A stretch of 64,000 bases of DNA. Source: Bradyrhizobium sp. SZCCHNS1050 (GTDB lineage: Bacteria > Pseudomonadota > Alphaproteobacteria > Rhizobiales > Xanthobacteraceae). The notes beneath the pieces were generated by a model that was not told the DNA's origin, ran no database searches, and was given only the letters and a program-made list of their open reading frames with translations. This document shows, one piece after another, positions 9,093-56,563 of the stretch. The stretch is from NCBI RefSeq assembly GCF_032484785.1, contig NZ_JAUETR010000001.1, positions 4,343,501-4,407,500 on the forward strand, given 5' to 3'. The translations under genes and the position numbers were made by a program. Position 1 is the stretch's first letter. Every line of letters starts with the position of its first letter.

Positions 9093-10748
9093 ATGGCTAC
9101 CATTGAAAGCGCGGGCACGCTCCCGGGCGCGCAGGCGGGGATCTTCGATCGTGAGCACACGGTCGCCAAGGCGGGGTTCAACCGCTGGCTGGTTCCTCCG
9201 GCTGCGCTGTGCATCCATCTCTGCATCGGCATGGCCTATGGCTTCTCGGTGTTCTGGCTGCCGTTGTCGCGCGCGATCGGCGTGACCAAGACCCAGGCCT
9301 GCCCGGACATGACCCTGGTGCAGGAGCTGTTCACGACGACCTGCGACTGGAAGGTCGCGAGCCTCGGCTGGATGTACACCCTGTTCTTCGTGCTGCTGGG
9401 CGGCTCCGCTGCCGTCTGGGGCGGCTGGCTCGAGCGGGCCGGACCGCGCAAGGCGGGTGCCGTCGCGGCCTGCTGCTGGGGCGGTGGCCTCCTGATCGCG
9501 GCGCTCGGCATCTATGTTCACCAGCTCTGGATGATGTGGCTCGGTGCCGGCGTCATCGGCGGCATCGGCCTCGGCCTCGGCTACATCTCGCCGGTGTCGA
9601 CCCTGGTGAAATGGTTCCCGGACCGGCGCGGCATGGCGACCGGCATGGCCATCATGGGCTTCGGCGGCGGCGCGATGATCGGTGCTCCGCTCGCCAACCT
9701 GCTGATGAACTACTTCAAGACCCCGACCTCGGTGGGTGTCTGGGAGACTTTCGTCACGATGGGCGTGATCTACTTCGTCTTCATGATGATCGGTGCCTTT
9801 GCCTATCGCGTCGCTCCGGTGGGCTGGCAGCCCGAAGGCTGGACGCCGCCTGCGGTCAAGAAGGCAATGATCTCGGAGCACCATGTGCACCTCGACAACG
9901 CGCACAAGACTCCGCAGTTCTGGCTGGTCTGGTGGGTGCTCTGCTTGAACGTGTCGGCCGGTATCGGCGTGATCGGCATGGCCTCGCCGATGCTGCAGGA
10001 GATCTTCGCCGGCAAGCTGATCGGTTTGCCCGACGTCAGCTTCAACCAGCTCGACGCCGGCCAGAAGGCCGCGATCGCGGGCATCGCGGCAGGCTTTGCC
10101 GGCCTGTTGTCGTTGTTCAACATCGGCGGCCGCTTCTTCTGGGCGTCGCTGTCGGACCACATCGGCCGCAAGAACACCTATTACTGCTTCTTCCTGATCG
10201 GCATCGTGCTCTATGCGCTGGCGCCGACCTTCGCAGCGATGGGTTCGAAGCTGTTGTTCGTGGCGGCCTTCGCCATCATCCTCTCGATGTATGGCGGCGG
10301 CTTCGCGACGGTGCCTGCCTATCTGGCCGACCTGTTCGGCACCCAGTTCGTGGGCGCCATCCACGGCCGTCTGCTGACGGCCTGGGCGACGGCCGGCATC
10401 ATCGGTCCGGTGGTCGTCAACTACATCCGCGAGTTCCAGCTTGCCGCCGGCGTGCCGCGCGACCAGCTGTACAACACGACGATGTATATTCTCTGCGCCA
10501 TGCTGCTCGCCGGCCTGATCTGCAACTTCTTGATCAAGCCCGTCGATGACAAGTGGAACATGAGCGCGGACGAAGTCGCGAAGTACCAGGCGGAGCTCGC
10601 CAAGAACGAGTCGGCGATCCAGCACGGGTCGTTCGGCATCGGCAAGGGCGGTCTCGACGTCAAGGCCGCCCTGTTCTGGGCCTTTGTCGGCGTGCCGCTG
10701 GCATGGGGTGTCTGGAAGACGTTGGAAAGCGCGGTCAAGATCTTCTGA
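9093..10748 (+). CDS. oxlT: OFA-family MFS transporter, oxalate/formate antiporter type
   Basis: 551 residues with about 12 transmembrane helices. 'NRWLVPPAALCIHLCIGMAYGFSVF' at residue 30 is the typical OFA start, and 'LVKWFPDRRGMATGMAIMGFGGGAMIG' and 'GRFFWASLSDHIGRKNTY' are the MFS loop signatures. A family-typical insert carries Cys residues (CPDMTL, TTCDW). The C-terminus has an extra hydrophobic segment after about residue 510. The protein probably exchanges oxalate for formate, linking to formate oxidation by molybdoenzymes. A GGGGAGGG ribosome-binding site precedes the ATG, an FNR/FixK box lies 55 bp upstream and a strong terminator follows. The substrate is inferred from the family. 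Confidence 0.85.
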   Translation: MATIESAGTLPGAQAGIFDREHTVAKAGFNRWLVPPAALCIHLCIGMAYGFSVFWLPLSRAIGVTKTQACPDMTLVQELFTTTCDWKVASLGWMYTLFFVLLGGSAAVWGGWLERAGPRKAGAVAACCWGGGLLIAALGIYVHQLWMMWLGAGVIGGIGLGLGYISPVSTLVKWFPDRRGMATGMAIMGFGGGAMIGAPLANLLMNYFKTPTSVGVWETFVTMGVIYFVFMMIGAFAYRVAPVGWQPEGWTPPAVKKAMISEHHVHLDNAHKTPQFWLVWWVLCLNVSAGIGVIGMASPMLQEIFAGKLIGLPDVSFNQLDAGQKAAIAGIAAGFAGLLSLFNIGGRFFWASLSDHIGRKNTYYCFFLIGIVLYALAPTFAAMGSKLLFVAAFAIILSMYGGGFATVPAYLADLFGTQFVGAIHGRLLTAWATAGIIGPVVVNYIREFQLAAGVPRDQLYNTTMYILCAMLLAGLICNFLIKPVDDKWNMSADEVAKYQAELAKNESAIQHGSFGIGKGGLDVKAALFWAFVGVPLAWGVWKTLESAVKIF

Positions 10749-11037
10749 CCGATCGGCGATGAGACAAGCGGGGCGGCCGGATCGGCCGCCCCTTTTTTTG
10801 CGGCGCAGAGGCTTGGTTTCCGGACGACTGGATCAGCGCCATCGTCGCGCAAAAGAGCGCGGTGTAGCCGATCATCTCGTCCCAATGGTTCAGGCCCGCG
10901 GCGAACACGCCCTTGCGGCGCAGCACCGCAAGCATGGCACACAGGATCATGGTCATCCAGAGCAGGGCGGCGAGGCTGCGACCGAAGCCGATGCGGCCGA
11001 ACGTGGCGAACAGGATGAGGATTGCTAGTCGCAGCAC
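10735..11037 (-). CDS. Small hydrophobic membrane protein, hypothetical
   Basis: 100 residues from a GTG start. Residues 1-75 form two or three hydrophobic segments ('LAILILFATFG', 'SLAALLWMTMILCAMLAVL', 'MIGYTALFCATMAL') with polar loops, which looks like genuine small membrane protein sequence. The last 30 residues are basic and Pro-rich and are encoded by the oxlT terminator, with a 14-bp convergent overlap into oxlT itself. That tail is probably not conserved. The function is unknown. Confidence 0.55.
   Translation of the reverse strand: MLRLAILILFATFGRIGFGRSLAALLWMTMILCAMLAVLRRKGVFAAGLNHWDEMIGYTALFCATMALIQSSGNQASAPQKKGRPIRPPRLSHRRSVRRS
10770..10799 (+). terminator. Intrinsic terminator of oxlT
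   Basis: Perfect 10-bp GC-rich stem GGGGCGGCCG/CGGCCGCCCC, three-base loop GAT, then seven T. It starts 22 bases after the oxlT stop codon. Confidence 0.93.
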
Positions 11038-11115
11038 AACTCGCAGCAGGACCCTGGCCGCCGGACGCTCAGCGGGCTTGTCGGTGGAGATCAGCGTCGA
11101 GCAGGTAACACCGGC

Positions 11116-47601: not shown

Positions 47602-50448
47602 CTAGCTCAGCGCTTCACTGATCGCGCTGTCGAGCATCTTCAGGCCCGATTTCAGATTGCCCTTGAGATGGACCCGAAGAGCCCTACGCCCGCGCTCGGT
47701 GAGTACGTCGAAGTCGCCGCGCGCCTGCGCCGCCTTGATCACGCCGAAGCTCGCCTTCTGCCCGGGGATCGGCAGATCCTGGGCATCGTCGGCCGTGATC
47801 TGGAGAAACACGCCGCTGTCCGGACCGCCCTTGTAGGCCTGGCCGGTCGAGTGCAGGAAGCGCGGACCGAACTCGGCGCAGGTGGCGAGGTGCTTGGCAT
47901 CGCGCAGCCTCAGCCGGATCCGCTGCAGCGTGTCGATATTGCCTGCGTTGCGGTCGATATAGCCGAGCAGGGCGATGTAGTCGCCGTCGCCGGCGCGGCC
48001 GAGATGCGCCTTCAGCCAGGACGCGAGCGTGCCGTCGGCGCCATGCTCGCGCAGGCTCTCGACGTTCTGTGCATCCGTGTAGAGCTCGCAGCCCTTGATC
48101 GAGACCACCGGCTCCTCGGCCGGCAGCGCGCCGCTCTGCTCGAACGCCGCCGTCAGCTCGCGGGTCTTGATCTTGGCCCATTCGACGTCGGGCTGGTCGA
48201 ACGGGTTGATGCCGAGCACGGCGCCGGCAACGGCGGTCGCCATTTCGAAGCGGAAGAATTCCTGGCCGAGCTGGTCGATCGACTTCATGACGATGCGCAC
48301 GACCGGATGGCCGGCCTCCTCGAGCGCGGCGAGCTTTGCATCATGGCCGGCCACGTCGTCGCCGCCGATCCTGATGTCGATGAAGAAGCGATCATGACCG
48401 TAGACCTCGGGCGAGGCGACTGGCTCGCCATCGATCGGGATGAGGCCCTTGCCTTCCTTGCCCGTGGACTCCGCGATCAACTGCTCGGCCCAGGCACCGA
48501 AATCGGCGATCTTGGGCGAGGCGAAGATCGTTATCTTGTCGCGGCCTTCGAGGCCGGCGAGACCCATCGCCAAGCCGAGCTGAACGCCCGGGTTCTGCGG
48601 CGGCGGCACGTCGGGCCCGCAGGAGCGCACCATTGACAGCGCCTGCGTAATCAGCCTGCGCACGTCGATGCCGGCGGTGGCGGCCGGCACCAGGCCGAAC
48701 GGCGACAGCACCGAATAGCGGCCGCCGATGGTCGGCTCGCCGTGGAAGATGCGGGCGAAGCCTTGCGCCTTGGCCGCCTTCTCCAGCGACGAGCCGGGAT
48801 CGGTCACGGCAATGAAGCGATGGCCGGCCTTCTTCGGCCCGATCGCCTCGGAGACGCGCGCGAAGAAGTAGTCCTTCATCGCGTTCGGCTCGGTGGTGCC
48901 GCCCGACTTCGAGGAGACGATGAACACCGTACGGGTGATGTCGATCGCCTTCTCCATCGCGCGCACCTGCGCGGGGTCGGTGGAATCGAGCACGTGCAGC
49001 CTGGGGAAGCCGGCCCTGCGCGGGAACGTCTCGGCGAGCACTTCCGGCCCGAGGCTGGAGCCGCCCATGCCAAGGACCACGGCGTCGGAAAACTTCTGTC
49101 CCTTCACCCGCTGCGCATAGTCCTCATAATCGGCGATATCGGCTTTCTCCGCGCTGGTCAGCCAGCCCAGCCATTTGTGCTCGTCATGGCCGGTCCAGAC
49201 CGTCGCATCCTTATGCCAGAGCCGGCGGATCCTGGCGTCCTTGCGCCAGTCCTCGGTCGCGGAGGCGACCTTCTTCTCGAGATCAGCAGCAACGGCGATC
49301 GTCTGCTGCCCAAGTCCTGTCCCCAGCACGACGGCGCGCTTGTGCGCAACCGCGCCGTAGAGCTTGTCGGCGGCGTCCGCGAACTGCCTGACGCCGTCGA
49401 CCACGAGATCTGCGGTGATGTCGTCGAGCGAGATGCCGGTCTTCGCCAGATCCTCCAGGGCGGCCTGGGCGGCGTCGACGTCTTCCTCCAGGCTGTCGCG
49501 CACCTCTCCGTGATCGCGGAAGGCGTCCAGCGTGGCCGGCGGCACGGTGTTGACGGTGTTCGGCCCGATCAGCTCCTCGACATAGAGGACATCGCTGTAA
49601 TCCTTGTTCTTGGTACCTGTGGAGGCCCAGAGCAGCCGCTGCGGCTTGGCGCCTTGCTCGGCCAGCCGCTCCCAGCGCGCGCCTGCGAACAGCCGCTTGT
49701 AATCCTGATACGCCATCTTGGCGTTGGCGATGGCGGTCCTGCCCTTGAGCGCCGCCAGCCGCTCCTTCTCCGAGGGATCGTTGGCCTGGGCGATCTTCTC
49801 GTCCAGTTGCTTGTCGACCACGCTGTCGATGCGGCTGACGAAGAACGACGCCACGCTGGCGACATGCGACGGATCGCCGCCGGCGCCGACGTAGGCCTCG
49901 AGGCCGGCAATGTAGGCTTCGGCGACCTGCCGGTAGACGTCTTGCGAAAACAGCAAGGTGATGTTGACGCTGATGCCCTTGGAGATCAGGTGCTGGATGG
50001 CCGGCAGGCAGGCGTCGGTCGCCGGCACCTTGATCATCAGATTCTTGCGGTCGACCGCCTTCCAGAGCTGTTCGGCCTCGGTGATGGTCGCTTTGCTGTC
50101 CATCGCCAGATAGGGCGAGACTTCGAGGCTGACGAAGCCGTCATTGCCATCGAAGCGGTCGTAGACCGGCCGCAGCACGTCGGCAGCATTCTGGATGTCC
50201 TCGACGGCGACGGCCTCGAACAGCTGCGTCGGCGATCGATCGCCGTTCTTCAGCGCCGTGGCGATCGGCGCGTCATATTCATCGGAGCTGCCGATCGCCT
50301 TCTCGAAAATCGCGGGATTCGAGGTGACGCCCTTGACGCCATCCTCATCGATCAGCCGCTTCAGGTCGCCTTTGGCGACGAAGCCGCGTGCGAGGAAATC
50401 GAGCCAGACCGCCTGGCCGTGTTCTTCGAGAGCTTTGACCGGATTCAT
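47602..50448 (-). CDS. tal-pgi: Bifunctional transaldolase / glucose-6-phosphate isomerase
   Basis: 948 residues. Residues 1-375 are transaldolase, with '[13 protein letters not shown]', the Schiff-base Lys140 in '[11 protein letters not shown]' and '[11 protein letters not shown]'. Residues about 400-945 are phosphoglucose isomerase, with '[19 protein letters not shown]', '[21 protein letters not shown]' and '[10 protein letters not shown]'. The fusion links the non-oxidative pentose phosphate pathway to glycolysis and glycogen metabolism and is known from several alphaproteobacteria and cyanobacteria-type operons. First gene of the tal-pgi, gnd, zwf, pgl, gntK, HAD operon. Confidence 0.95.
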
Positions 50449-51520
50449 GATGCCTATCTATGTGCGTCGGCTTGCTTTTTCGGGTTCCCGCCTGGCGGCC
50501 TGCCAGGTCGTGGACCTCACATGAACAACTATGCGCCAGCCCACAGGAGAACGCCATTCATAATGGATTGATCCCTCTGGAATCCCAAGAGCTTCGCGCC
50601 GGGCTCGACGTGCCGGCGGCGCGCGCCCCGCGGGAGACGTGCAGGCAGCCTGAAGCCTGCTGCCGACCGTTCGACCAAGGCGTGGCGAAGGTTCGCCAAG
50701 CGCGGCCAGCGTTCGGCTCGCGTCGGCCTCCGCGACACCCGCGCGCCGGAGGTCTCCCATCGTCGCGAGCAAATGCCGTCGATCAAACCTTCTCCGCCTT
50801 GCAATGCCGGAAAGCGGCCACATGTGTTCTGGGTAATGGTGCCTCACGTCACGGATCAAGGCGAGCGTCTTGCGATTGTCGCGTCGGCTGCGGCTCGTGA
50901 TCGGCGGATAACCCATGATGCTTTCTGCTTGCAGACATTCGGTGGCGAGCCGCAACCTGATCATGGCAATGATCAGCATCGAGTGATCCGTCCGGTTTCG
51001 GCCGCGCGTTACGTCACGGCATTCGATTCTAGCGGTGAACATGTGTGCGGATGGCTGTGAGATGCGCGCGTTCATCGCTCGCCTGATCACGATGACGTCG
51101 CGTGAGCGATGGTTGACGTGCGCGCAGCGGGGCCATCTGTTCGACCACCGTGGCCGGCGCGCATCATGTCGCGCCACGAATGAGACATTCGCTGCCTGGC
51201 GCAGCTGCGCGACCGTTGGCGTTCACTCGCGGTTCACTTCCGGAAGACAGACTGATCCCGGAGCTGTCACGCCACCAGTTCACGTGGCTTCACAACACCT
51301 TGTGCGGCGCAGGAAGACTACGGTGCCGGGGTATTGCGGATGTTGCGAAGCAGAGACAATGGGGTACAAATGGGGAGAGTCGGCCGGCGTTTGCCGAACT
51401 ATTGAGCGAAGTGCATGTTGATAGGGCATATGCTGCATGCACTTTGCGTTGCGGAAAAGGACGAAGACGGTGCCCAATGGGGGCTAGCGCGCTTCACTCT
51501 GAGTCGGTTCGGGATCAGCA
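50449..51520. other. 1.1-kb intergenic region between tal-pgi and prkA, no gene supported
   Basis: A minus-strand frame of 239 codons (50458-51177) and several shorter ones exist, but their sequences are Arg/Ser/Pro-rich with no motif, and they lack ribosome-binding sites. GC content is lower than the flanks. The right part holds an inverted repeat (51409-51444) and an EcfG-like promoter. Confidence 0.45.
51409..51444. repeat. Inverted repeat upstream of prkA
   Basis: AAGTGCATG (51409-51417) and its complement CATGCACTT (51436-51444) flank 18 bases that contain a second palindrome GCATATGC (51426-51433). It lies about 77 bp upstream of the putative prkA -35. It could be a regulator-binding site. 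Confidence 0.5.
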
Positions 51521-51546
51521 GGAACGTACTTGGATCTCGGCCCGTT
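51521..51546 (+). promoter_or_regulatory. EcfG-like (general stress) promoter of prkA
   Basis: GGAAC (51521-51525), 17 bases, CGTT (51543-51546): an exact consensus match. It predicts a transcript starting about 28 bases before the prkA ATG. Confidence 0.68.
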
Positions 51547-51581
51547 GCAGCAGTGCAGCGGAACCTACGTGGAGAGGGATC

Positions 51582-53525
51582 ATGTACAACGATTCGTTGT
51601 TCAACGCGTTCGCAAGGTCGTTCGAGGCACGCAGCCAGACCGACATGTCGATGCAGGAATATCTAGAATCGTGTCGAACCGACCCGATGCGATACGCGAA
51701 CGCCGCTGAACGACTACTAGCTGCGATCGGTGAGCCTCAGATGATCGATACGGCCAAGGACCCACGCCTTGGCCGTATTTTTTTGAACCGGACGGTTCGG
51801 CTGTATCCCGCGTTCGCCGGCTTCTACGGTATGGAAGACACGATCGAGCGCATCGTCGGATTCTTCCGTCACGCCGCGCAGGGTCTCGAAGAGCGCAAGC
51901 AGATCCTCTATCTGCTCGGACCGGTCGGCGGCGGCAAGTCGTCGCTCGCCGAACGGTTGAAGCAGTTGATGGAAACTCATCCGATCTACGTGCTCAAGGC
52001 GGGAGATGAGTTGAGCCCCGTGTTCGAGTCGCCGCTCGGCCTGTTCGATCCCGACACGCTGGGCCCGATGCTCGAGGAGAAATACGGCATTCCGCGCCGC
52101 CGCCTGTCGGGCCTGATGAGCCCGTGGTGCTACAAGCGGCTCGAAGCCTTCGGCGGCGACATCTCGCAGTTCCGCGTCGCCAAGATCCAGCCGTCGCGGC
52201 TGCGCCAGATCGGCATCGCCAAGACCGAGCCCGGCGACGAGAACAACCAGGACATCTCCTCGCTGGTCGGCAAGGTCGACATCCGCAAGCTCGAAACCTA
52301 CGCCCAGAACGATCCCGACGCCTACTCCTATTCGGGCGGCCTCAACCGCGCCAACCAGGGCATCCTCGAATTCGTCGAGATGTTCAAGGCGCCGATCAAG
52401 ATGCTGCATCCGCTGCTGACGGCGACGCAGGAGGGCAACTATATCGGCACCGAGAACATCGGCGCGATTCCCTACAATGGCGTGATCCTCGCCCACTCCA
52501 ACGAGGCGGAGTGGCAGAGCTTCAAGACCAACAAGAACAACGAGGCCTTCATCGACCGGATCTGCGTCATCAAGGTGCCGTACTGCCTGCGCGTCACCGA
52601 GGAGCGCAAGATCTATGAGAAGCTGATCCAGGGCTCCGAGCTCTCCGCCGCGCCCTGCGCGCCCGCGACCTTGGACACGCTCGCCAGATTCTCGGTGATG
52701 TCGCGCCTGCGCAAGCACGAGAATTCGACGTTGTACGCCAAGATGCGGGTCTATGACGGCGAGAGCCTCAAGGAGTCCGATCCGAAGGCGCGCAGCGTGC
52801 AGGAATATCGCGACGCCGCCGGCGTCGACGAGGGCATGGACGGCATCTCCACGCGCTTTGCCTTCAAGGTGCTGGCTGCGACCTACAATCACGACACGGC
52901 GGAAGTGTCGGCCGATGCCGTGCATCTGATGTACGTGCTGGAACAGTCGATCAAGCGCGAGCAACTGCCCGAGGAGATCGAGAAGCGCTACCTCGAATTC
53001 ATCAAGGCGGATCTGGCGCCGCGCTACGCCGAGTTCATCGGTCACGAGATCCAGAAGGCCTATCTGGAATCCTACTCCGATTACGGCCAGAACCTGTTCG
53101 ACCGCTACGTCGACTACGCCGATGCCTGGATCGAGGATCAGGACTTCAAGGATCCCGATACGGGACAGCTGCTCAATCGCGAGCTGCTGAACCAGGAGCT
53201 GACCAAAATCGAGAAGCCGGCCGGGATCGCCAACCCGAAGGATTTCCGCAACGAGGTTGTCAAGTTCTCGCTGCGCTTCCGGGCCCAGAATGGTGGCAAA
53301 AATCCGTCCTGGACCTCCTACGAAAAGATCCGCGAAGTCATCGAAAAGAGGATATTCTCGCAGGTCGAGGATCTGCTTCCGGTCATCTCGTTCGGTACCA
53401 AGAAGGACGGCGAGACCGAGAAGAAGCACGACGACTTCGTCGCGCGCATGGTCGAACGCGGCTACACCGAGCGGCAGGTCCGCCGGCTGGTCGAGTGGTA
53501 CATGCGCGTGAAGCAGGCGGGTTGA
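51582..53525 (+). CDS. prkA: PrkA serine protein kinase / AAA+ ATPase
   Basis: 647 residues. It aligns in kind with E. coli YeaG/PrkA from the start: 'FNAFARSFEARSQTDMSMQEYL', 'YANAAERLLAAIGEPQMIDT', 'RLGRIF', 'YGMEDTIERIVGFFRHAAQGLEERKQILYLLGPVGGGKSSLAERL' with Walker A at 113-121. Downstream are an AAA domain and a C-terminal kinase-like domain (about 410-640) with 'SYSDYGQNLFDRYVDYADAWIEDQDF'. It works with YeaH and YcgB in starvation or general stress. GGAGAGGG precedes the ATG. Codons 56-68 form a perfect terminator-like hairpin plus T-run. PrkA's kinase versus protease activity is debated for the family. Confidence 0.96.
   Translation: MYNDSLFNAFARSFEARSQTDMSMQEYLESCRTDPMRYANAAERLLAAIGEPQMIDTAKDPRLGRIFLNRTVRLYPAFAGFYGMEDTIERIVGFFRHAAQGLEERKQILYLLGPVGGGKSSLAERLKQLMETHPIYVLKAGDELSPVFESPLGLFDPDTLGPMLEEKYGIPRRRLSGLMSPWCYKRLEAFGGDISQFRVAKIQPSRLRQIGIAKTEPGDENNQDISSLVGKVDIRKLETYAQNDPDAYSYSGGLNRANQGILEFVEMFKAPIKMLHPLLTATQEGNYIGTENIGAIPYNGVILAHSNEAEWQSFKTNKNNEAFIDRICVIKVPYCLRVTEERKIYEKLIQGSELSAAPCAPATLDTLARFSVMSRLRKHENSTLYAKMRVYDGESLKESDPKARSVQEYRDAAGVDEGMDGISTRFAFKVLAATYNHDTAEVSADAVHLMYVLEQSIKREQLPEEIEKRYLEFIKADLAPRYAEFIGHEIQKAYLESYSDYGQNLFDRYVDYADAWIEDQDFKDPDTGQLLNRELLNQELTKIEKPAGIANPKDFRNEVVKFSLRFRAQNGGKNPSWTSYEKIREVIEKRIFSQVEDLLPVISFGTKKDGETEKKHDDFVARMVERGYTERQVRRLVEWYMRVKQAG
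51748..51784 (+). terminator. Intrinsic-terminator-like hairpin inside the prkA reading frame
   Basis: Perfect 12-bp stem: ATACGGCCAAGG (51748-51759), 7-base loop, CCTTGGCCGTAT (51767-51778), then an uninterrupted run of seven T (51778-51784). It begins 166 bases after the ATG, within codons encoding DTAKDPRLGRIFL. Structurally it is as good as the oxlT terminator, yet it is in coding sequence. Premature termination or attenuation is inferred. Confidence 0.7.
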
Positions 53526-53750
53526 TCGTGGTCCGGCGCCGATGTTCACTGCAGGTGCGGCAGGCCATCGGTCTGACGTCGGCGCCAGGGCTACGAAACG
53601 AGCGAAACGTTCGACGCTGAGCTTCGCTGGGAGGCGTCGGACAGGCAGAGGGTGCCGTTGCAGTGTCGGGTCCGATACTGCACCGCGGCATCGCGGCGGG
53701 GGAGAGCAGGAGTCGAAGCCGCTGCAGCAGGAGGCGTATGGAACGTGGTC

Positions 53751-55028
53751 ATGCACATCATTGATCGGCGCCTGAATCCGGGCGGCAAAAGTCTCGAAAA
53801 TCGCCAGCGATTTTTGCGCCGCGCCAAGGCCCTGGTTCAGGGAGCGGTCAAGAAGACCTCGCAGGACCGCGACATCAAGGACGTGCTGGAGGGCGGCGAG
53901 GTCTCGATCCCGCTCGACGGCATGGACGAGCCTCGCTTCCGCCGCGAGGGCGGCACCCGCGACATGGTGTTGCCCGGCAACAAGAAGTTCGTCGAAGGCG
54001 ACATCCTGCCGCGCTCCGGCGACGGCAGCGGCCGCAAGTCGGCGCCCGGACAAGGCGACAGCGAGGACGCGTTCCGCTTCGTGCTGAGCAAGGAGGAGTT
54101 CGTCAACCTCTTCCTCGACGATCTCGAACTGCCCGATCTCGCCAAGCGCAAATTCGCCGAGGCCGAGAGCGAGGGGCTGGTACGCGCGGGCTATTCGACC
54201 TCGGGTTCGCCGGCCAATATCTCGATCAGCCGCACCGTCACCCGCGCCTTGGCCCGCCGCGTCGCGCTGCGCCGTCCGCGGCCGGAGGCGATTGCCGAGC
54301 TCGAAGCCCAGCTGGAGCAGGAGACCGACGACGACAAGCGCGCCGCGCTTCTGGCCGAGATCGAGGCGCTGAAGGCGAAGGCCAAGCGCATCCCCTTCAT
54401 CGACCCGATCGACATCCGCTACCGGCGCTTCGAGGCCGTGCCGAAGCCGATCGCACAGGCCGTGATGTTCTGCCTGATGGACGTGTCCGGCTCGATGTCG
54501 GAGCACATGAAGGACCTCGCCAAGCGATTCTACATGCTGCTCTACGTGTTCCTGACCCGGCGCTACCGCCATGTCGAGATCGTCTTCATCCGCCATACCG
54601 ATCGCGCCGAGGAGGTCGACGAGCAGACGTTCTTCTACGGACCGGCGTCCGGCGGCACCTTGGTGTCGAGCGCCTTGCAATGCATGCACGACATCGTCCG
54701 CTCGCGCTTCCGCCCGTCGGACTGGAACATCTACGCGGCGCAGGCCTCCGACGGCGACAACGCCACCTCGGATTCCGAGAACGTCGCGCGGCTCTTGACC
54801 GACAACATCCTGCCGGTGTCGCAGTTCTTCGCCTATCTCGAGGTCGGCGAATCCGGCACCTATTCGTTCGAGATGCCCGACTCGGCGCTGTGGTCGCTGT
54901 ATGAGCGGCTGCGCGCCAATGGCGAGCCGCTGTCGATGCGCAAGGTCCGCGACCGCAGCGAGATCTTCCCGGTGTTCCACGACCTGTTTCAGCGTCGCGG
55001 CACCACGCAGGAGAGGGCGGCGTCATGA
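53751..55028 (+). CDS. yeaH: YeaH/YhbH-family (DUF444) protein
   Basis: 425 residues starting 'MHIIDRRLNPGGKSLENRQRFLRRAKALV', the family's standard opening, which fixes the start. A long basic N-terminal half precedes a von Willebrand factor A-like domain with the metal-site motif 'MDVSGSMSEHM' at Asp244 and 'GGTLVSSAL' near 303. It is the constant partner of PrkA and YcgB in stress operons. Its molecular role is unclear; a PrkA substrate or adaptor is likely. It lies 225 bp after prkA and overlaps ycgB by four bases. Confidence 0.93.
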   Translation: MHIIDRRLNPGGKSLENRQRFLRRAKALVQGAVKKTSQDRDIKDVLEGGEVSIPLDGMDEPRFRREGGTRDMVLPGNKKFVEGDILPRSGDGSGRKSAPGQGDSEDAFRFVLSKEEFVNLFLDDLELPDLAKRKFAEAESEGLVRAGYSTSGSPANISISRTVTRALARRVALRRPRPEAIAELEAQLEQETDDDKRAALLAEIEALKAKAKRIPFIDPIDIRYRRFEAVPKPIAQAVMFCLMDVSGSMSEHMKDLAKRFYMLLYVFLTRRYRHVEIVFIRHTDRAEEVDEQTFFYGPASGGTLVSSALQCMHDIVRSRFRPSDWNIYAAQASDGDNATSDSENVARLLTDNILPVSQFFAYLEVGESGTYSFEMPDSALWSLYERLRANGEPLSMRKVRDRSEIFPVFHDLFQRRGTTQERAAS

Positions 55029-56563
55029 GCGGGTTGCTGTTCGAGGGCGCAGACTGGAATTTCCTCACCCTGCAGCGCATCCACGATGCCTGCGAAGCCG
55101 TCGCCGAGAAGGAGCTCGGGCTCGACACCTATCCCAACCAGATCGAGGTGATCACGGCCGAGCAGATGCTCGACGCCTATTCCTCGGTCGGCATGCCCCT
55201 GTTCTACAAACACTGGTCGTTTGGCAAGCACTTCGCCTATCACGAGGCCTCGTACCGCAAGGGCCTGATGGGCCTCGCCTATGAGATCGTGATCAACTCC
55301 TCGCCCTGTATCTCCTATCTGATGGAGGAGAACACGGCGACGATGCAGACCTTGGTGATCGCGCACGCGGCGTTCGGCCACAACCATTTCTTCAAGAACA
55401 ACTATCTGTTCAAGCAGTGGACCGACGCCGACGGCATCCTCGACTATCTCGATTTCGCCCGCGGCTACATCGCGCAATGCGAGGAGCGTTATGGCCGGCT
55501 CGCGGTCGAGCATACGCTCGACGCGGCGCATGCGCTGATGTCGCACGGCGTCGACCGCTATCCGGGCAAGAAGAAGCTCGACTTCCGCGAGGAGGAGAAG
55601 CGCGCCGGCAAGCGCAGGCTCTACGAGGAGGGCCAGTTCAACGATCTCTGGCGCACGGTGCCGACCGGCCCGGTCAAGACCAATGCGATGCTGAACGTCG
55701 AGCGGCGCCGCGCGCTGCTCGGCCTCCCGCAGGAGAACCTGCTCTATTTCCTGGAGAAGACCGCGCCGCGGCTGGCGCCCTGGCAGCGCGAGTTGCTGCG
55801 CATCGTTCGCCACATCGCGCAGTATTTCTATCCGCAGGGCCAGACCAAGGTCATGAACGAGGGCACGGCGACCTATGTGCACTATCGCATCATGAACCGG
55901 CTGCACCAGGACGGCCGCCTCACCGACGGCAACTTCCTGGAGTTCCTGCAGTCGCACACCAACGTCGTGTTCCAGCCGGAGTTCGACGATCCGCGCTTCT
56001 CCGGCTTCAACCCATATGCGCTCGGCTTTGCGATCATGCAGGACATCGAGCGCATCGTGAAGGACCCGACCGACGAGGATCGCGAATGGTTTCCGGACAT
56101 CGCCGGCACCGGCGACGAAATGGCGGTGCTGCGTGACGTCTGGGCGAATTATCGCGACGAGAGCTTCATCAGCCAGTTCCTCAGCCCCAACCTGATCCGG
56201 CGCTTCAAGCTGTTCCATTTGCATGACGATCCGGCCGAACGCGCCGGCATCCTGGTCGACGCCATCCATGACGAGCGCGGCTATCGTCGCATCCGGCGCG
56301 AGCTGTCGAAACAGTACGATGTCGGCTACATCGACCCGAACATCGAGGTGGTCGATGTCGATCTCGCCGGCGATCGCCGCCTGATGCTGCGACATACGGT
56401 GGTCAAGGGCGCCCAGCTCAACGAGACCGACACCAAGCGCGTGCTGCAGCATCTCGCCGATCTCTGGAGCTACGACGTGTCGCTGGTCGAAGTCGACGCC
56501 GCCACCGACAAGGTGCTGAAGGAGTACGTGCTCAATCCCCGGATACAACCGGCGGCCGCCTAG
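55025..56563 (+). CDS. ycgB: SpoVR/YcgB-family protein
   Basis: 512 residues, usual length. 'LDTYPNQIEVITAEQMLDAYSSVGMP' and 'YKHWSFGKHF' near residue 60, 'INSSPCISYLMEENTATMQTLVIAHAAFGHNHFFKNNYLF' near 93 and 'VMNEGTATYVHYRIMN' near 278 are SpoVR hallmarks, rich in His and Glu that could bind metal. The function is unknown; in Bacillus SpoVR affects spore cortex. It is co-translated with yeaH through an ATGA overlap and is the last gene of the set. Confidence 0.95.
   Translation: MSGLLFEGADWNFLTLQRIHDACEAVAEKELGLDTYPNQIEVITAEQMLDAYSSVGMPLFYKHWSFGKHFAYHEASYRKGLMGLAYEIVINSSPCISYLMEENTATMQTLVIAHAAFGHNHFFKNNYLFKQWTDADGILDYLDFARGYIAQCEERYGRLAVEHTLDAAHALMSHGVDRYPGKKKLDFREEEKRAGKRRLYEEGQFNDLWRTVPTGPVKTNAMLNVERRRALLGLPQENLLYFLEKTAPRLAPWQRELLRIVRHIAQYFYPQGQTKVMNEGTATYVHYRIMNRLHQDGRLTDGNFLEFLQSHTNVVFQPEFDDPRFSGFNPYALGFAIMQDIERIVKDPTDEDREWFPDIAGTGDEMAVLRDVWANYRDESFISQFLSPNLIRRFKLFHLHDDPAERAGILVDAIHDERGYRRIRRELSKQYDVGYIDPNIEVVDVDLAGDRRLMLRHTVVKGAQLNETDTKRVLQHLADLWSYDVSLVEVDAATDKVLKEYVLNPRIQPAAA

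Follow-up and report, generated by a model that had tools for sequence, protein, structure and literature searches.

The prkA gene of Bradyrhizobium sp. SZCCHNS1050 contains, within its translated region, a sequence with the form of an intrinsic transcription terminator. To our knowledge, coding sequences are usually expected to be without strong intrinsic terminators. Is the hairpin in prkA a coincidence of the codons that encode a conserved peptide, or is it maintained by selection? And, if it is maintained, what does a terminator do so close to the start of a gene? Here we investigate this element in a window of 64,000 nucleotides (contig NZ_JAUETR010000001.1, positions 4,343,501 to 4,407,500), to which coordinates refer unless another locus is named, and in the prkA genes of related bacteria.

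The prkA gene (51582..53525, + strand) encodes 647 residues with an AAA_PrkA domain (PF08298, 618 bits) and a PrkA C-terminal domain (PF06798, 253 bits). Its ATG at 51582 follows GGAGAGGGATC and is aligned as the start in all 99 genus members compared. The terminator hairpin, assigned from sequence, fold and conservation (51748..51778, + strand), begins 166 nt past the A of this ATG. Its 5' arm ATACGGCCAAGG (51748-51759) pairs perfectly over 12 bp, seven of them G-C, with the 3' arm CCTTGGCCGTAT (51767-51778), enclosing the loop ACCCACG (51760-51766). A thirteenth pair, G51747-T51779 (G-U), is possible. The T tract (51778..51784, + strand) comprises seven T in codons 66–68 (ATT TTT TTG); the first is the last base of the stem, so that six lie past it, and the RNA 3' end is predicted at ~51784-51786. 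The hairpin thus occupies codons 56–66 of prkA, and hairpin and tail together codons 56–68. A perfect 12-bp stem with a 7-base loop and seven T, 166 bases into prkA, is what the first-pass annotation had described, and the sequence bears it out. The fold, at -20.3 kcal/mol, has a z-score of -6.1, none of 200 shuffled sequences being equally stable, and the site combines the GC-rich stem, short loop and adjoining U tract of an intrinsic terminator. Rfam returned no match at E ≤ 1 within 51000-52200. A 10-bp core (51750-51759 / 51767-51776) is the conserved part of the hairpin; the two pairs outside it require GAT at codon 56, which is present in two of the 99 genus members.

How unusual is such a site in this genome? 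Both strands of 464 kb, made up of the window and 20 stretches of 20 kb, were scanned for hairpins with a perfect stem of 8 bp or longer, a loop of 3–8 bases and at least five T among the next seven bases. Seven sites were found: four between gene-like frames, one antisense and two in a same-strand frame, with genes chosen by length and GC3 rather than by annotation and their start codons unchecked. The prkA stem is the longest of the seven. The other same-strand site (L264:5190-5213) is ~50 nt inside a stop-to-stop frame, probably ahead of the true start codon of that frame. No site of this grade other than the prkA hairpin falls clearly within a coding sequence on its own strand in the 464 kb. 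Its stem is also the longest in a 14-kb scan, which gave 16 terminator-like sites against a mean of 7.3 in shuffles. The 23-nt palindrome occurs without mismatch at a single place in the genome, and with up to two mismatches at eight, compared with six for the reversed control. Elsewhere in the window, at 10770-10799, an all-GC 10-bp hairpin followed by seven T lies antisense to a called open frame (10424-11068); this is probably an ordinary terminator and the frame miscalled.

Selection on the hairpin was assessed in a codon alignment of prkA from 99 genus members (this genome and 98 others), to which were added 19 sequences from the rest of the family and 19 from the rest of the order. The 99 come from 245 prkA-bearing genus genomes; because they were drawn from score-ordered lists, with some left out by hand, the sample is biased to closer relatives. 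Parsimony changes were counted on a tree made from prkA codons 91 onward. Nine stem and tail codons are nearly fixed in the genus (94–99 of 99): ACG57, GCC58, AAG59, CGC62, CTT63, GGC64, CGT65, TTT67 and TTG68. Together they have undergone 10 changes. Codon sets matched to them by amino acid, drawn from other parts of prkA, give 97 ± 20, and in 100,000 such draws no value as low as 10 arose. Four of them are held despite being rare among their synonyms from codon 91 on: CTT63 (99/99; usage 6%), CGT65 (94/99; 8%), TTT67 (94/99; 6% of Phe codons) and TTG68 (96 of 97 Leu; 7%). Conserved rare codons occur in ten prkA columns, these four and codons 5, 31, 32, 37, 170 and 591. When constraint is normalised for amino acid, codons 57–68 are the tightest 12-codon window of 491; by plain codon diversity, un-normalised, they rank fourth, after overlapping windows at codons 263–265.

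The surroundings behave differently. Loop codon 61 varies (CCA in 57, CCT in 25, CCC in 11, plus other residues), as do flanking codons 55, 69 and 70 across the 99 genus members. The constraint is one-sided: the T tract that follows the stem is kept, whereas codon 55, immediately before the stem, has 14 changes. The core stem is followed by ATCTTTTTG or ATTTTTTTG in 92 of the 99; in the remaining seven (L017, L020, L031, L036, L069, L077 and L079) the 9-nt tail has fewer than six T, and L069 is additionally down to eight stem pairs. Compensatory changes could not be counted because the stem is almost invariant. Frozen stem and T-tract codons beside a varying loop and flanks therefore support a functional element of the terminator type. 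Judged from the substitutions, the footprint of constraint is that of a terminator, covering both arms and the downstream T tract without the loop or the upstream side, and terminator-type selection on the stem and T tract is well supported. Synonymous variation among relatives had been put forward at the outset as a test of this reading; with the stem nearly frozen in 99 genus members, the reading withstands it.

Is the element confined to these close relatives? At least nine of the ten core pairs with a T-rich tail are present in 92/99 genus members and 16/19 sequences of the family's other genera, and in none of the 19 from elsewhere in the order. To check the sampling bias of the 99-member set, 265 genus genomes were searched for the nine inner stem pairs followed by ATYTTYTTG. 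This pattern was found in 230 of the 265, its position in prkA being seen among the matches listed, and the reversed control in none. The prkA gene is present in 245 of these genomes, and all 20 without it also lack the pattern. Named genomes gave at least 120 in-frame prkA matches, mostly from Bradyrhizobium; among the matches listed the other carriers are Tardiphaga, Bosea (L197, L222, L247), Roseiarcaceae (L184) and MAGs, and every one listed sits in prkA, none at another gene. No comparable stem and T tract was found in 47 prkA loci outside the clade, which were the top-scoring hits in the samples of the order and the class and included some incomplete loci. Stems of 8–9 bp elsewhere in prkA at L124, L127, L129, L130 and L139 have tails of the kind GTTCTTC or GTTTTCC and were judged not to be terminators.

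In a protein tree of selected prkA sequences the carriers form one clade with a few losses. The Bosea and Roseiarcaceae genes (L197, L222, L247 and L184) have the same hairpin and are ~83–84% identical in DNA to the window. In the tree they group with the family members L117, a weak carrier, and L118, a non-carrier, and both gene transfer and an older origin are therefore possible. Two individual cases may also be recorded. One genome (G400) has two prkA copies, of which L111 keeps the element and L116 has lost it, making a natural test pair. In another genus member (G252:C1:5841714-5842314) the prkA match is split in two, and one of the pieces carries an in-frame TAG.

The first-pass annotation had also held that the hairpin coincides with residues conserved in other PrkA proteins. 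This needs a qualification at two positions. Among the 118 genus and family sequences, 114 have L at residue 68 and 116 have K at residue 59, but in the outgroups, judged from the 43 of the 47 loci with a readable motif, residue 68 is M in 31 and residue 59 is K in 15. The peptide DTxxDxRLGRIF is itself conserved beyond the clade. Both K59-to-R changes among the 118 sequences use AGG, which retains a G-U pair in the stem. The pattern of residues suggests that the clade may have settled on those that suit the stem and T tract, rather than the hairpin matching residues that are universally fixed.

What would termination at this site affect? On the same strand follow a DUF444 gene (53652..55028, + strand; 458 aa; PF04285, 520 bits) and a SpoVR gene (55025..56563, + strand; 512 aa; PF04293, 571 bits), second and third in a presumed operon. 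Gene order and the example of R. etli point to a prkA-DUF444-SpoVR operon, and the terminator, within the translated region, precedes the rest of it. In R. etli, as reported in one study, prkA heads a three-gene operon and is negatively autoregulated, its expression is RpoN1-dependent, and in stationary phase it is >27-fold higher in the wild type than in a (p)ppGpp-deficient mutant (PMC3188799). Upstream lies a transaldolase-phosphoglucose isomerase fusion of 948 aa in one frame (47602-50448, - strand; PF00923, PF00342). Because this large gene runs in the opposite direction, the prkA hairpin probably does not serve to terminate an upstream gene; + strand frames between the two are short (83–146 aa). 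Opposite prkA and DUF444 runs an open frame of 1087 aa (51717-54980, - strand), likely a by-product of high GC.

A candidate promoter, GGAAC-N17-CGTT, was read in the sequence at 51521..51546 (+ strand); it resembles the EcfG (general stress) type. RNA starting from it would begin at ~51552-51555 and, if the promoter is used, would measure ~235 nt up to the T tract. GGAAC-N16/17-CGTT occurs within 200 nt upstream of prkA in 40 of the 99 genus members, at -55 to -64, compared with a shuffled rate of 0.18%; no exact match was found upstream of prkA in the remaining 59, nor among the 15 loci listed from the family and the order. The upstream sequence differs in other genus members, and blocks such as GTGTCCAAT and TGATTCG recur in many of them. 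A sigma-54 promoter was considered and is unsupported, the pattern being present at scattered places in 4/99 upstream regions.

Immediately 5' of the terminator, codons 31–56 (51672..51749, + strand) form a stretch of rare codons. Their mean relative adaptiveness is 0.28 (genus mean 0.32), compared with 0.67 ± 0.16 in 204 gene-like ORFs, and it recovers to 0.62 in codons 69–90. Values as low over codons 11–56 occur in 10 of the 204 ORFs and in 61 of 8075 windows of that length in this genome. GC3 of codons 31–55, relative to the rest of the gene, is lower in 112 carriers than in 29 non-carriers (Mann-Whitney p 4e-7, a statistic that ignores the kinship of these related sequences). The stretch was rejected as a fixed partner of the hairpin; it is weak in Bosea and Roseiarcaceae, which retain the hairpin, and is therefore not obligate.

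Overlapping the start of this stretch, the fold of the predicted 235-nt RNA contains a possible upstream hairpin, AUCGUGUCG / CGAUGCGAU (51668..51693, + strand; codons 29–38), which spans the conserved rare codons TGT31, CGA32 and CGA37. At least eight of its nine pairs are present in 74/99 genus members and in none when the arms are slid by 1–3 nt. Outside the genus it occurs in only 2/19 sequences of the family, and ~25 genus members with K37 have it broken; it is not required. A second constrained block, codons 23–32 (51648-51677), overlaps it: TCG23, TCG30 and TGT31 are unchanged and CGA32 is present in 97/99, with 0, 0, 0 and 2 changes at codons 23, 30, 31 and 32. The predicted hairpin at 51668-51693 explains this constraint in part. 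Antiterminators were sought with RNAalifold in 114 sequences, which gave weak upstream folds unshared by single-sequence folds. An upstream complement of 8–9 nt to the 3' arm is present, as a raw count, in 55/99, at varying positions. Neither search yielded an antiterminator or alternative fold with support across relatives.

How might a terminator be tolerated in prkA, and even favoured? We consider, with moderate confidence, that codons 56–68 are probably a selected intrinsic terminator, masked by ribosomes, that acts as a translation-coupled attenuator of prkA-DUF444-SpoVR. Termination in cells, ribosome control, the RNA start, the slowing signal and the short RNA are here what we infer from sequence; a term search of the main text of a B. 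japonicum transcription start site paper gave no mention of prkA (PMC4842269). In this model, a ribosome close behind RNA polymerase would keep the hairpin from forming and transcription would read through. Should the lead ribosome lag or be absent, the hairpin would form and the U tract would free the RNA at ~51784-51786, so that a short 5' RNA (~235 nt), which would have no stop codon, would replace the prkA-DUF444-SpoVR message. The rare codons 31–56 may sharpen the dependence on ribosome speed. Such a model does without an antiterminator fold. In E. coli reporters, less transcription passes an intrinsic terminator when a ribosome is stalled ahead of it on the message (PMC5021804); because of this, and because the upstream gene runs in the opposite direction, gating of prkA by ribosome cover seems the most likely mode of action. 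Attenuation through loss of ribosome cover and a 5' RNA of ~230 nt, both first suggested when the hairpin was noticed, are plausible by analogy with known systems (PMC5021804, PMC3989581).

Several other explanations have to be weighed against this one. That the hairpin is a coincidence, preferred codons of a conserved peptide without function, could draw on the conservation of DTxxDxRLGRIF outside the clade as well; much the same peptide is, however, encoded without the stem in other lineages, four of the held codons are rare, and matched prkA codons change about ten times more. The matched-codon test already contradicts this reading, which we regard as highly improbable. A gene-internal operator, in which a regulator binds the DNA palindrome, would fit a core that is a perfect inverted repeat matched exactly once in the genome. 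It accords poorly with a constraint that holds the 3' T tract and leaves the 5' side free (14 changes at codon 55), and with the two AGG variants, in which DNA symmetry is lost and the RNA G-U pair is kept; nor does the element occur at other genes among the at least 120 named-genome matches listed, so an operator is improbable and we give it little weight. If the hairpin instead slowed ribosomes at codon 57 for folding of the N-terminal part of PrkA, or marked the mRNA for stability, with transcription unaffected, the clustering of rare codons immediately 5' of it would be in keeping. A pause has no need of a frozen TTT TTG tail, however, and outgroup PrkA proteins manage without such a hairpin (0/47), which leaves this explanation very unlikely. 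A programmed frameshift at T TTT TTG was rejected, the heptamer being missing in the 49/99 members that carry ATCTTTTTG.

Two further explanations turn on a shortened RNA. The terminator may serve the short 5' RNA itself (~235 nt), as a base-pairing sRNA, a sponge or the message of a short peptide, with any effect on prkA secondary. The predicted 235-nt RNA folds with a z-score of -2.58, one of 200 shuffled sequences reaching its stability, and the terminator forms a hairpin of its own at the 3' end; the constrained block at codons 23–32 and the second hairpin predicted in 74/99 lie upstream, and E. coli sRNAs are described as arising from 5' regions and ORF interiors (PMC7815308). On the other side, many codons upstream of 57 change freely (16–25 changes at codons 16, 40, 41, 43, 45–47, 50 and 52), the second hairpin is lost in one clade, Rfam holds no match to 51000-52200, and prkA has no occurrences in the main text of a B. 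japonicum sRNA paper (PMC5082802). A role for the short RNA is accordingly unlikely, while being the least unlikely of the alternatives. Alternatively, prkA may possess a processing or non-stop device like that of arfA, in which RNase III or termination yields a stop-less mRNA and tmRNA rescue sets the output of PrkA. The coding-region stem-loop of arfA is both a target of RNase III and a point at which transcription terminates early (PMC3989581), and prkA RNA that ended at 51784 would also be stop-less because no in-frame stop codon precedes that end. Cleavage alone would not need a T tract, though, and this is about as conserved as the stem; truncation of prkA would moreover leave ~67 of 647 residues, ending before the P-loop, whereas the arfA site is in the 3' region of its ORF. 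We think such a device quite unlikely, and translation-coupled attenuation by a ribosome-masked terminator is the reading we retain.

More speculatively, and with our doubts outweighing our confidence, the lineage may use the first 68 codons of prkA as a gauge of translation speed: the rare codons would slow the lead ribosome, the terminator would abort the operon whenever ribosomes fell behind, and RNA function would even have fixed the protein residues L68 and K59. Whatever its precise use, a terminator seems to have been kept actively, in frame, across a genus and some of its relatives: by this account selection would hold it in prkA of Bradyrhizobium and some related Hyphomicrobiales. If the preferred reading is true, some of the regulation of the prkA operon would be accounted for, and the locus would offer a clean natural system for studying how close ribosomes stay to RNA polymerase in alpha-proteobacteria. 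The element also suggests a route to similar sites in other genomes, namely a search for invariant rare codons.

We found no earlier report of a prkA-internal terminator in the open literature, most subscription papers lying outside the scope of the search. Translation-dependent attenuation is familiar in rhizobia from rnTrpL, which acts in a leader via a separate upstream ORF. The S. meliloti DUF1127 attenuator resembles the prkA element in that ribosome availability decides whether transcription continues; it acts in a leader with a separate upstream ORF and is probably Rho-dependent, whereas in prkA sensor and target would share one frame (PMC12218461). Intrinsic terminators unmasked by ribosome stalling are already known from E. 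coli (PMC5021804). Close to the prkA element are the narY and rsxC candidates, intrinsic terminators in translated stretches that are suppressed by the advancing ribosome; the main reporter in that work used the pyrL terminator, however, the coding-region sites being predictions chosen for tests, and the accessible text reports no lineage-wide conservation of the kind held by the prkA element (PMC5021804). That element lies near the 5' end of the first gene of its presumed operon and appears to be selected across the genus and related groups.

The arfA system is a further point of comparison, and there the truncated protein is functional. A conserved stem-loop within the coding region and the lack of a stop codon are features that prkA has in common with arfA; truncation near the C terminus is not. 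In both, the stem-loop within the codons would end the message early and without a stop codon, but that of arfA lies towards the 3' end of its ORF and is cut mainly by RNase III (PMC3989581), and that of prkA is at codon 57 of 647 with a conserved U tract. Finally, the prkA site resembles the ORF-internal 3' ends of E. coli, some of which, such as aceK int, possibly arise by intrinsic termination; those were found in RNA data from one species, whereas the prkA site is known here through sequence conservation (PMC7815308).
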